Below are positions 49,542 through 53,403 of a DNA stretch of 64,000 nucleotides, in pieces. The stretch spans positions 5,121,703-5,185,702 of the forward strand of contig NZ_CM011002.1 in the NCBI RefSeq assembly GCF_000158095.2. Direction: 5' to 3'. Numbering within the stretch: position 1 is the first letter of the stretch; each line of letters starts with the position of its first letter. The notes beneath the pieces are model-generated. The model was given only the letters and a program-made list of their open reading frames with translations. It was not told where the DNA came from and searched no databases. Both the position numbers and the translations under genes were made by a program. This DNA is from Roseibium alexandrii DFL-11 (GTDB taxonomy: Bacteria > Pseudomonadota > Alphaproteobacteria > Rhizobiales > Stappiaceae).

Positions 49542-50201
49542 CTATCGGGCGAGCGGCGGGACGACGGTGAGCGTACCGGAGCGGCAGCCGTTTCGATCGA
49601 CAGAAGGACAGGAGCGGAATTCCAGATCCTTCGACATGCAGATACGGACTTCTTGAAGTTCGCCGCGTTCGCAAACAACCGCGATGCCGTCCTTGGAAAG
49701 TCCCGGATTGACGCTTGAGAATGCCGCTTCGATCTTGGAGGGGGCAGCCTGTCCGCGTTTGTTGATCGTCCGGAAGGCTTTGGGGATCTGGACCTTTTCG
49801 AATGCGTCGCGGGTCAGATCAAAATAATCCTCAGGTGTCAGTCCCGAGCAAGTGCCGTGTTTGCGCCATTGATGAAAAATCAGGCCGTGACTCGGCATGA
49901 TGTCGTCCATATCAAAGGCGATCTGCCGATCAATGCGGCGTTGGCTCGTATCGCAGCTTTCCGGATAGCCGCGGTCGTATTGTGGCCAAAGACCATGAAC
50001 AATAAAGCGGAACGGTGTCCGCGCATCACACTGGTGGGGACTGGCATTCGGTCCAGCTTCCCGGCAGTAGGCGGGGGACCAGGACAGTGCCAGGACATAG
50101 AAGTCAAAATCACCGGGTGTGTCGGCTTGGACAGTTGGCGAAAATCCAAAGGCAACGATGGCCGCCACAGCAACGTGCTGTAGAAATTTCGCCAATCTCA
50201 T
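49542..50201 (-). CDS. RNase T2 family ribonuclease, short form
   Basis: This 219-residue protein has a Sec signal (ending near residue 27) and an RNase T2 domain. The first active-site segment is FIVHGLWPQ (H69). The second is FHQWRKHGTC (H110, K114, H115), with Gln111 where the first paralogue and most family members have Glu. Six or more cysteines fit the family's disulfides. It lies 23 bp downstream of a small secreted-protein gene, so the two form an operon. The Glu-to-Gln change could lower or alter RNA cleavage; this is inference from the known catalytic role of that Glu in fungal enzymes. Confidence 0.88.
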   Translation of the reverse strand: MRLAKFLQHVAVAAIVAFGFSPTVQADTPGDFDFYVLALSWSPAYCREAGPNASPHQCDARTPFRFIVHGLWPQYDRGYPESCDTSQRRIDRQIAFDMDDIMPSHGLIFHQWRKHGTCSGLTPEDYFDLTRDAFEKVQIPKAFRTINKRGQAAPSKIEAAFSSVNPGLSKDGIAVVCERGELQEVRICMSKDLEFRSCPSVDRNGCRSGTLTVVPPLAR

Positions 50202-50224
50202 GATTTGATCTATCCGAGTGTAAA

Positions 50225-50668
50225 TTATTGCGCTGTTAGCGTACGGCATGAGCCGCCATAAACATACCACTTATCGCGATGATTCAGGCATGTCTCGACA
50301 TTCCAGCTGATCCCGAATGCGCCCGCGTGGGCTTCCAGCAGATATTTGACCGCGACCCTGCTGCCGTCAGACAGGCTTGCAGTCCCACTGCAATACCGGC
50401 GGGTCACAGCGCTGGAGATACTTGATCGATACGTTGTGTCCCGGATTTTGTCGAGCTGGATGATGCGGACCCCATTGAAGTAGCTCGGTGCGCGGCTCAC
50501 CGTATTCTGCACGGCGCGTTGAACAGAGGAGGCGTCGCAGCCAGGCAGCTGATTGGACCGCTCACTGGAGAAATAAAGCCGGTGATCGTCAGCTGCAGCA
50601 GTGGCTGTCATAAAACCGGACAGGGCCAGCACAGGAAGGGCAAAGCGGGCAACACGAAACAAACTCAT
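50225..50668 (-). CDS. Small secreted protein in operon with RNase T2
   Basis: I do not recognise this 147-residue protein. It has a Sec signal peptide (MSLFRVARFALPVLALSGFM, cleavage near ATAAA) and a mature part with about four cysteines (PGCDAS, RRYCSGT, VETCLNH, GSCRTL) that may make two disulfides. GGAGG precedes ATG 50668. It starts the two-gene unit with the RNase T2. It could be a partner, inhibitor or delivery factor of the nuclease, but no sequence feature proves this. Confidence 0.72.
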   Translation of the reverse strand: MSLFRVARFALPVLALSGFMTATAAADDHRLYFSSERSNQLPGCDASSVQRAVQNTVSRAPSYFNGVRIIQLDKIRDTTYRSSISSAVTRRYCSGTASLSDGSRVAVKYLLEAHAGAFGISWNVETCLNHRDKWYVYGGSCRTLTAQ

Positions 50669-50755
50669 AGCCGAACCTCCAAAAACGCTTGGCTCTGACG
50701 ATGGGGGACATCCAGGAGCAGGTCAAGCAGGGATCGTTAAAATCGGCTCATGGGC

Positions 50756-51604
50756 TCATTCGCCGACAATCTGATGAACATTCCAATCGGCTCCCGGCCC
50801 TTGCCGAACCGTTTCACAGAGCCACGGAAGCACTACATTCATTTCGCTTGAAAGGGTAAAGGGCGGGTTAACCATAGTCATGCCTGAACCCAACATACGG
50901 GTATCCGGGCCGCTTTTGCCCGCATTTAGTTCCAGTGCCAGGATGTCGCGCAGCCCTGCCTCCTCGAAGTCCTTGTGCATTCGTGAAATGGCCCGTGCAT
51001 CCTTCATCGGATACCAAAGGGCAAAGGTGCCTGTTTGCCATTTCCGCCAGCTTTTGATGACCGCTGTGGTCATGTCGCCGAATTCGCTCGTTTTTTCAAA
51101 GGCCGGGTCAATCAGGACAAGCCCGCGTTTTTCCTTGGGTGGAAGGAAACTGCCAAGCGCCAGCCAGCCGTCCAGATGGATCGTTTTCACCTGATGATCG
51201 CCTGCGAACAGATTTGAAAGGGTTTCAAAATCCGCCGGATGAAGCTCGGTAAGGGTCAACCTGTCCTGTTTTCGCAGCATGCGCCGGGCAAGCAGTGGAG
51301 AGCCTGGGTACGTTTTCAGCGTGCTGTCGCCATTTTCACCGCGCACGACATCAAGCCAGGGAGCCAGAAGCTCCGAAACACTCTCCGGTATATCACTGGC
51401 GAGCACCTTACCGATGCCCTGTTGCCACTCTCCCGTCTTTTGGGTTTCTTCCGACATCAGATCGTAGCGCCCGATGCCCGCATGGGTATCGATGATCCGG
51501 AAACCCTTTTCCTTGCGCTGGAAATACTTGATCAGACGCGCCAAAACGGCATGCTTCAGAACGTCACCAATGTTGCCAGCGTGGTAGGCGTGCCGATAGT
51601 TCAT
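50756..51604 (-). CDS. rlmJ: 23S rRNA (adenine2030-N6)-methyltransferase
   Basis: The 282-residue enzyme methylates A2030 of 23S rRNA. It begins with the diagnostic MNYRHAYHAGNIGDVLKHAVL, and has the SAM-site region IIDTHAGIGRYDL and catalytic VLIDPAFE (DPxF-type). C-terminal GSGMTMVNPPFTL is family-specific. Its ATG overlaps the stop of the GNAT gene by 4 bases, so the two are coupled. Confidence 0.95.
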   Translation of the reverse strand: MNYRHAYHAGNIGDVLKHAVLARLIKYFQRKEKGFRIIDTHAGIGRYDLMSEETQKTGEWQQGIGKVLASDIPESVSELLAPWLDVVRGENGDSTLKTYPGSPLLARRMLRKQDRLTLTELHPADFETLSNLFAGDHQVKTIHLDGWLALGSFLPPKEKRGLVLIDPAFEKTSEFGDMTTAVIKSWRKWQTGTFALWYPMKDARAISRMHKDFEEAGLRDILALELNAGKSGPDTRMLGSGMTMVNPPFTLSSEMNVVLPWLCETVRQGPGADWNVHQIVGE

Positions 51605-52116
51605 TCCGCAACGCCCAGTGGGTCTTTGCGTAGGAAAACAACGGCTTTTTCGCCGTGATCCGCCGTGCCGATTTCTTCAAAGCCGAGCCGCTGATGGAAC
51701 CTCAAAGAGCCTGGGTTTGGTGGCCTCGAGTTCACCTCGCAGACGAAGCTGCGGCCTGTGTCTTTCAGGTGATCGAACAGCGCCTTGTAGAGTTTCTCGC
51801 CAATTCTCAAACCGCGCCGAGTTTCATCGACACAAATGCGGTCTGTATAGGAAAAGTTGGAGACGTTTTTGCTCAGCCAGCGATAATTCGCGCTGGCATA
51901 ATCCGCACCGTCGCTGATCGACAATAGAAAACCCACGGGCTCCTCGTCGATCTCCGCAACCAGGCAAACAAGCGATTGGCCGATCAGATCCAGAAGTTCT
52001 TCTGCAGACAACTCGTTCACAGCCGGCACGGCAGCGTTGTTCAGGGGCAGCAAGCAGCTCAAATCCCCTGGGCGGAACGGCCGGACATTTGCGGTCGGAT
52101 TTGAAGTTGTCGTCAT
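51601..52116 (-). CDS. GNAT-family N-acetyltransferase upstream of rlmJ
   Basis: The 171-residue GNAT protein has the acetyl-CoA loop RRGLRIGEKLYKALFDHL and the NPGSLRFHQRLGFEEIG final motif. The start region FRPGDLSCLLPLNNAAVPAVNEL is shared with bacterial GNAT proteins of unknown substrate. Coupled translation with rlmJ suggests a ribosome-related target, but this is speculative. ATG 52116 follows AGAAAGG. Confidence 0.85.
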   Translation of the reverse strand: MTTTSNPTANVRPFRPGDLSCLLPLNNAAVPAVNELSAEELLDLIGQSLVCLVAEIDEEPVGFLLSISDGADYASANYRWLSKNVSNFSYTDRICVDETRRGLRIGEKLYKALFDHLKDTGRSFVCEVNSRPPNPGSLRFHQRLGFEEIGTADHGEKAVVFLRKDPLGVAE

Positions 52117-52191: not shown

Positions 52192-52259
52192 AAAACAACG
52201 GGCGCACCAGTGATGCGCCCGGAATTGTGTGATGCAGGGCTTCCGGCCGAGGCCGGAAG
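52192..52259 (-). terminator. Double hairpin after cold-shock gene
   Basis: Two perfect stems follow the minus-strand stop: CTTCCGGCC/GGCCGGAAG (52240-52259) and GGGCGCA/TGCGCCC (52200-52220). The second is followed by GTTGTTTT and is the likely terminator. Confidence 0.7.
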
Positions 52260-52267
52260 AGTGCAGC

Positions 52268-53191
52268 TTATTCGTAATCTGGCTGCTCGCCTGTGCCGTC
52301 GTTGACCGGCTGGTCGTCAGCGCCGCCGCTCGAACCGTCTTCTTCGAGCATTTGCAGGTTCACCGCTTTTGGGCCCTTGCCCCGGCGATCCGGTTCGGTC
52401 TCGAAAGAAATGCGTTGCCCGCTGTCCAAGGAGGCGAGTCCTGACCGCTCAACTGCAGAAATATGGACGAAAACATCTGTCTCGCCATCATCCGGGGTAA
52501 TAAATCCGAAGCCTTTGTCGGACTTGAAGAATTTCACAACACCGGATTGGCGTGGCCCACGTTCGACCGGCGGATAGTCCCGCCGTGGAGGACGATCTCC
52601 CCCTTCACGGTTTCCACCGCCGAATCCGCCCCGGCCGCCACCGCCGCCGCCGTAACCACCGTCACGACCACCGCCACCGCCGCCGTAACCACCGCGGTCT
52701 CCGCCGCCATAGCCACCTTCACGACTACCGCCGCCGCCATAACCGCCACGGCCACCACCGCCGTATCCGCCGCCATCACGGCCGCCACCGCCGCCGCCGC
52801 CGCCGTAACCACCGCGGTCTCCGCCGCCATAGCCACCTTCACGACCACCGCCGCCGCCATAGCCGCCACGGCCACCACCGCCGTATCCGCCGCCATCACG
52901 GCCGCCACCGCCGCCGCCGTAACCACCGCGGTCTCCGCCGCCATAGCCACCATCACGGCCGCCGCCGTAACCACCGCGGTCGCCGCCACCGCCGCCACCA
53001 TAACCGCCACGGCCACTGCCGCCGCCAAAGTCATTATCGCGCCCACCCCGGTGACCGCCATCACGGCCGCCGCCATAATCACCACCGAAGTCGCTTCCGC
53101 CAAAGTCACTGCCGAAGTCTTGCGGACCGCCAAACTCGCGCTTGCCGCCGCGCCGACCACGCGACCGCCGGTCCGAATCCCCATCGTGCAT
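52268..53191 (-). CDS. Cold-shock-domain protein with long Gly/Arg/Tyr-rich N-terminus
   Basis: This 307-residue protein is a fusion. Residues about 20-205 are low-complexity, built from GGYGGGDRGG and GGYGGGGRGG units with repeated arginines and tyrosines. Residues about 216-284 form a single cold-shock domain with RNP1 KGFGFI and RNP2 VFVHIS, both intact. The tail is acidic (DGTGEQPDYE). Typical bacterial Csp proteins have only the 70-residue domain. Glycine-rich RGG/GGY regions mediate RNA binding and phase separation in eukaryotic proteins, and plant GRP2-type proteins join a cold-shock domain to a Gly-rich tail, but in the opposite order. ATG 53191 follows AAGG. Residues 1-20 are basic. 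Confidence 0.9.
   Translation of the reverse strand: MHDGDSDRRSRGRRGGKREFGGPQDFGSDFGGSDFGGDYGGGRDGGHRGGRDNDFGGGSGRGGYGGGGGGDRGGYGGGRDGGYGGGDRGGYGGGGGGRDGGGYGGGGRGGYGGGGGREGGYGGGDRGGYGGGGGGGGRDGGGYGGGGRGGYGGGGSREGGYGGGDRGGYGGGGGGRDGGYGGGGGGRGGFGGGNREGGDRPPRRDYPPVERGPRQSGVVKFFKSDKGFGFITPDDGETDVFVHISAVERSGLASLDSGQRISFETEPDRRGKGPKAVNLQMLEEDGSSGGADDQPVNDGTGEQPDYE
52689..53040 (-). repeat. In-frame tandem DNA repeats in Gly-rich coding region
   Basis: Blocks beginning ACCGCGGTCTCCGCCGCC occur at 52691, 52811 and 52925, spaced 120 and 114 bp, so the unit codes for about 40 or 38 residues. The first two copies are nearly identical over about 110 bases. Gaps between units are in multiples of three, as selection for the frame would require. 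Copy number may vary between strains. Confidence 0.85.
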
Positions 53192-53403
53192 TACGTAATC
53201 ACCTTAATTTCCGTGCCGTTCCGGCACTAACGCCAATTCTCACCCGCCTTTTCGGCCGAGCCTAAATCGGAGAGCACATCGAGATGCACTCACCAAACTC
53301 AAGGATCGGGGTGAAGTAGAGCTGCCGCACCCCATTCCATCCGCTGCGGAAACATCATAAGGGCGCGATTGTGAAAATCGCAAGAAAATCCTTAGGGGAA
53401 AGG

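Follow-up and report, generated by a model that had tools for sequence, protein, structure and literature searches.

The cold-shock domain (CSD) family binds single-stranded RNA, and RNase E provides the scaffold of the best known RNA condensates in bacteria. To our knowledge, the arginine methylation seen in eukaryotic RGG proteins is generally missing from bacteria. Among described proteins that join a CSD to a glycine-rich region, the plant protein AtGRP2 has an N-terminal CSD followed by two CCHC zinc knuckles set among Gly-rich regions (PMC11602973), and forms droplets in vitro under crowding, which the C-terminal region drives while the N-terminal part alone forms none (PMC13261584). In the latter report, removal of arginines or of the zinc fingers abolishes the droplets, removal of the Gly-rich part raises the saturation concentration, removal of tyrosines lowers it, and RNA disrupts the droplets (PMC13261584); the zinc-finger, Gly-rich and tyrosine deletions imply that GGY richness by itself is at best a weak predictor of droplets. 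Nucleic-acid domains with Gly-rich disordered regions also occur in E. coli SSB, which phase-separates (PMC9312465), and in Burkholderia Hfq2, with its repetitive Gly-rich C-terminus (PMC7074383); both share this pairing with the protein described here and differ from it in the C-terminal position of the region and in protein family.

The combination of a CSD with a Gly-rich region is thus already known, and the form described here, a family of single-CSD proteins with the arm placed first, is a variant of it. The locus lies in a window of 64,000 nucleotides from Roseibium alexandrii DFL-11 (Stappiaceae), and its features, in window positions, are as follows.

53354..53383, minus strand: predicted sigma-70-like promoter, TTGCGA-18-TATGAT (scan; TATGAT kept in an alignment of 46 relatives)
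53192..53347, minus strand: predicted leader, about 155 nt long (start site placed by the promoter prediction)
52268..53191, minus strand: arm-CSD gene, 307 aa (open reading frame; Pfam CSD; orthologues in 85 of 87 family genomes)
53084..53191, minus strand: N-terminal cap, residues 1-36 (short core near the N-terminus in 79 of 79 scored family proteins)
52571..53083, minus strand: Gly/Arg/Tyr/Asp repeat arm, residues 37-207 (minisatellite; composition; pLDDT below 50 at residues 32-198)
52544..52570, minus strand: linker PVERGPRQS at the arm-to-CSD junction, residues 208-216 (ERGPRQ in 79 of 79)
52352..52546, minus strand: cold-shock domain, residues 216-280 (Pfam PF00313, E 2.7e-21; pLDDT 91-94)
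52268..52348, minus strand: acidic tail at the C-terminus (net charge -9), with the stop codon (tail negative in 79 of 79 orthologues)
52199..52221, minus strand: terminator-like hairpin with a T-rich tail, just 3' of the gene (scan)

The reading frame runs from an ATG at 53191 to a stop at 52268 (exact coordinates), with AAGGTGA 5' of the start codon as read on the minus strand, and its product passes from a 207-residue Gly/Arg/Tyr arm through the linker PVERGPRQ to the CSD and an acidic tail, the final serine of PVERGPRQS doubling as the first residue of the domain. The CSD is the sole Pfam match (75.6 bits against a cut-off of 27), which places the protein among CSD proteins; it matches solved CspA (e.g. 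PDB 1mjc), the best PDB match having E 2.7e-20, and the KGFGFI and VFVHI motifs, which we take to be RNP1-like and RNP2-like, are intact. The protein thus shares a complete CSD with CspA-type proteins and differs from them in about 207 additional N-terminal residues and an acidic C-terminal tail. At 307 aa it falls outside the classical single-domain Csps (CspA/C/D/E, about 65-75 aa and CSD only), and all ten NCBIfam Csp models that matched it scored below their cut-offs. Six further CSD matches occur in the source genome, two of them in one 217-aa frame.

With AtGRP2 the protein shares a CSD joined to a disordered Gly-rich region bearing arginine and tyrosine, both of which matter in AtGRP2 (PMC13261584). 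It is not a GRP2-type protein, since the CSD is C-terminal and zinc fingers are absent, the 307-aa translation holding no cysteine. The sequence-only reading had proposed precisely this architecture, a repeat arm ahead of a normal CSD in the reverse order to plant GRP2, and both points were borne out; its estimate of about 185 residues for the arm needs correction to the measured 207.

Residues 1-207 comprise 118 Gly, 27 Arg, 15 Tyr, 6 Phe, 20 Asp, 4 Glu and 1 Lys, with 10 RGG and 13 GGY motifs and a net charge of +4, and the whole protein is acidic (pI 5.4; tail net -9). Within the arm DNA, Tandem Repeats Finder rows span 52626-53026, the top-scoring row covering 52671-52967 with a 120-bp unit (40 residues) in 2.5 copies at 93% match. 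Antisense and other-frame open reading frames over the repeat were considered and set aside, as they look like products of repeat composition. In an AlphaFold2 model built from 33 sequences, the CSD reaches pLDDT 91-94 per block of ten residues, with OB-fold-like strands and one short helix, and residues 32-198 stay below 50, which is consistent with a disordered arm without being proof of it.

Upstream of the gene, the promoter scan found 3 sites against 0.3 expected, and TATGAT is conserved at 90% or more in the alignment of 46 relatives. In the predicted leader, the sequence just 3' of the promoter forms a conserved block, and a GTGCC-GGCAC hairpin precedes the ribosome-binding site, whose region is itself conserved among the relatives. 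A stem of at least 5 pairs at the hairpin site, with pairs plus G-C pairs of at least 9, was found in 40 of the 46 (a count made without a shuffled control), and the changes in the alignment are mostly one-sided. Cold-shock mRNAs have long leaders, and the predicted leader of about 155 nt resembles them. The Rfam scan gave sub-threshold matches only, the cspA model reaching 19.6 bits against 78 and lying inside the coding region. Terminator-like hairpins numbered 2 against 1.5 expected in shuffles, and the one 3' of the gene is therefore weak on its own.

The arm is a family trait, reaching beyond a single gene. A search with the linker-CSD part of the protein returned orthologues in 85 of 87 family genomes (E at or below 3.2e-36), the next among the matches listed starting at 4.7e-24. 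Of the two remaining genomes, G071 has a contig, C2, that begins inside the GNAT gene, on the expected csp side, so that a contig end is more likely than natural gene loss; G076 is 85% complete, with a best E of 4.0e-20. An arm is present in all 80 family orthologues with a readable N-terminus, which answers the question, raised in the sequence-only reading as a possible refutation, of whether it would be missing in close relatives. Arm statistics cover 79 of the 85 family loci: L071, L110 and L115 run into a contig end, L010 lies near a contig start and has a frame that switches to other sequence partway through the arm, L027 holds N, and L101, the eightieth armed orthologue, has cap and arm that the scoring pattern missed.

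Across these 79 proteins, arm length ranges from 71 to 220 residues (median 178), glycine from 16 to 57%, arginine from 10 to 19%, tyrosine plus phenylalanine from 7 to 23 residues and RGG from 0 to 12, with a median net charge of +4. Glycine makes up at least 40% of the arm in 49 and less than 35% in 23, and tyrosine falls below 2.5% in 9; all 46 proteins that start with MHDGDSDR, as the 307-aa protein does, have at least 42% Gly. The ERGPRQ linker is found in 79 of 79, the C-terminal tail is net negative in 79 of 79 (median -8), and a cap core (RGGKR[EDQ]F, RGGSK[DEG][FY] or GRGS[KR][EDG]F) lies near the N-terminus in 79 of 79, a count that is partly by construction because starts were picked with a related pattern. 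Judged from these sequences, arginine, aromatic residues, near-balanced charge, the N-terminal cap and the acidic tail are steadier than RGG. The likeness to eukaryotic RGG regions suggested in the sequence-only reading was put too strongly and holds only in part, RGG not being the conserved feature; given the RGG range, the 23 arms below 35% Gly, the near charge balance and the pI of 5.4, the parallel with basic RGG boxes of eukaryotes is a loose one.

Composition is held while length moves. Across the 79 arms, arginine and acidic counts correlate at r 0.95 (0.85 with length held), and the aromatic count correlates with arm length at r 0.89. Seven database proteins share a 66-residue CSD stretch and the first 36 residues identically with the 307-aa protein and measure 208, 223, 241, 245, 265, 280 and 290 aa; since the same ends occur in proteins of 208-307 aa, arm length changes faster than the protein ends, and part of this variation may be short-read collapse of the 120-bp repeats. 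In eight ungapped pairs of equal arm length, with arms identical at 80% or more of positions, pN/pS was 0.07-0.37 for the arm after the cap and 0-0.06 for the CSD, and the arm is therefore under selection; some pairs share a member, and in six of the eight the arms are short, poor in Gly and from a single genus (g6). Long Gly-rich arms are represented by the other two pairs, with values of 0.10 and 0.07 that derive from 1 and 5.5 differences changing an amino acid.

The explanation we favour, with confidence somewhat better than even, is that a plain csp acquired a long, disordered arm at its N-terminus, giving an RNA-binding protein of the cold-shock type that would act as a multivalent RNA chaperone. 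It builds on the computed architecture, family conservation, arm selection, disorder-like pLDDT, variable length and conserved promoter and leader. The CSD would bind single-stranded RNA via KGFGFI and VFVHI; the spaced arginines and aromatic residues of the arm could make many weak contacts with RNA, other arms or partners; the acidic tail may compete for basic patches and so limit unspecific binding; expression would probably be set by the structured leader; and repeat number may tune contact strength. Overall, the multivalent protein would draw RNA together, with condensates possible at high level, and droplet or granule formation is plausible by analogy with AtGRP2. The sequence-only reading, which had suggested an RNA-granule former for cold or stress, was right in expecting a function, and its granule proposal is plausible. 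Against this explanation count the RGG number of 0-12, the 23 of 79 arms with less than 35% Gly, two armless genomes of family f13 and the AtGRP2 deletions, in which droplets depended on zinc fingers as well as on arginine, whereas the present protein has arginine and lacks zinc fingers; simple electrostatic RNA binding is weakened by the near charge-neutral arm and the acidity of the protein.

Three other explanations have to be weighed against the same evidence. An unlikely one takes the arm as a tether: the cap (core RGRRGGKREFG) docks one partner, such as RNase E, a helicase or the ribosome, while the repeats serve only as a flexible, length-tolerant spacer. The cap core and ERGPRQ in 79 of 79 proteins (the cap partly by construction), free repeat number at identical CSD (208-307 aa), Gly below 35% in 23 of 79 arms and the similar cap RRPRRGGxREFG of family f29 all agree with it; however, a mere spacer needs neither proportionate arginine and aromatics nor near-balanced charge nor pN/pS of 0.07-0.37, and the N-terminus of family f28 differs (MRDRGFGG...). 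It is improbable that the protein has ordinary Csp function and that the arm serves as a solubility, abundance or translation-initiation device, not as an RNA or condensate element: the canonical CSD, the six further CSD matches in the genome and the conserved ribosome-binding region would fit, but it is the make-up of the arm, beyond its mere presence, that is kept. Neutral slippage, the in-frame growth of a GC-rich minisatellite ahead of a csp that has no function and is merely put up with by the cell, would account for tandem 120-bp units, strong length variation and the two armless f13 genomes, yet is already disfavoured and very improbable, given the arm in 80 of 80 readable family orthologues, pN/pS well below 1 (long Gly-rich arms making up two of the eight pairs), and the scarcity of Ala (0.93%) and Val (0.05%) among the residues of 44 arms, although both are one base away from Gly codons.

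A bolder extension of the multivalent RNA chaperone can be offered tentatively, and we regard it as doubtful: the protein would be a bacterial counterpart of eukaryotic CSD/RGG granule proteins, with arms gained independently in Stappiaceae and sphingomonads and with minisatellite length as the dial by which evolution adjusts the threshold of RNA-protein condensation in cold or stress. What makes the family of interest is an RNA-chaperone domain fused, in marine bacteria, to a conserved, selected, near charge-balanced arm of freely varying length. The natural length series on an identical CSD, the armless relatives, the low-Gly arms and the sphingomonad parallel make it a clean system for relating sticker number to RNA assembly in bacteria, for which the armless L051 and L052 would be useful controls. 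These two loci (genomes G145 and G181, f13) carry the CSD and ERGPRQ linker with about 26 residues before the domain and are rlmJ-linked.

Another line of evidence concerns gene neighbourhood and origin. In the window, the downstream neighbours at 49542-52116 on the minus strand are RNA-related and encode a GNAT acetyltransferase, the rRNA methyltransferase RlmJ, a small protein that matches nothing in Pfam and a ribonuclease T2; in G071 and G244, too, RlmJ follows, as does, by eye, a frame resembling RNase T2. Family loci have rlmJ in 82 of 85, GNAT in 63, DUF1176 in 43 and a metallo-beta-lactamase-fold gene in 35. The order's other families contributed 16 loci, of which 9 have rlmJ (six f28, two f13 and G244) and 5 have the metallo-beta-lactamase-fold gene; in the armed f13 genome G098, the 11 kb around the locus matched the latter gene and not rlmJ, and the f29 loci matched none of the neighbour genes searched. 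A further 62 named loci (L150-L213 without L168 and L197), of which 61 were seen as plain csp and L188 was left unjudged, have rlmJ nearby in 15 and the metallo-beta-lactamase-fold gene in 27, in differing order and orientation. As the family shares these neighbours with plain csp loci of other alphaproteobacteria, the setting of the armed gene is probably an ancient csp neighbourhood.

A tree of 109 CSDs (scored family proteins thinned to one in three, named plain Csps to roughly the same share, plant proteins left out) places the family among the Csps of the order, many forks staying open on only 65 columns. In a sample of 199 genomes of the order, 20 are armed (7 f1, 6 f28, 6 f29, 1 f13), with G244 as a suspect addition; as the survey took matches at E up to 1e-24 and, where a match had no locus, frames of at least 139 aa (20 such frames, all judged but L255), shorter or more distant arms could be missed. 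A single origin of the arm, with f1, f13, f28 and f29 grouped as one clade, is not rejected (p-AU 0.47), the 65 columns being too few to decide.

One candidate source of the arm was rejected. In G244 (L062/L244), a single frame at L244 2965-3690 joins an RRM, a Gly-rich arm, a CSD and an acidic tail, and is probably an assembly chimera: the RRM part is 99% identical to P0124, a protein named from a Dehalococcoidia MAG, the right flank holds rlmJ and, by eye, genes that resemble RNase T2 and GST, which the window has as well, the join falls in GGYRGGG repeats common to both parts, and the genome is 58% complete. RRMs were absent from the source genome and present in 11 of the 199 genomes of the order, G244 included. 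This case is a warning for metagenome matches of the RRM-arm-CSD kind, and the RRM-CSD proteins P0122, P0125 and P0130, on contigs of about 1 kb, were left unused.

Among the open-access titles and abstract openings listed, the range searched (subscription papers and preprints lying outside it), none describes the present bacterial protein. Armed forms of another kind are found in sphingomonads and their kin, where 'cold-shock proteins' (L133, L215, L221, L222 and L224) resemble the present protein in that their N-terminus is an arm that starts basic and carries repeats of the DRGGFGGG type (e.g. MSFDRGRRGGRG), and differ from it in having two CSDs, which form two separate clades away from the family. 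By the tree they appear to be a separate design, though joining the armed rows with the CSD2 clade is not rejected (p-AU 0.29). The generalisation that bacterial Csps usually consist of the domain alone was thus overstated.

Further arrangements were seen in passing. L197, from a Hyphomonadaceae MAG, is a Csp whose long arm, at the N-terminus, consists of GGGGFGDRPPRRDF-type repeats; it has an rlmJ match nearby and a long tree branch; L247 (G243) is a Csp frame ending in a repeated EESEESEES acidic tail; and P0021 (Klenkia), P0025 (a metagenome protein) and P0089 (Geodermatophilus) carry several CSDs spaced by Gly/Arg-rich linkers.
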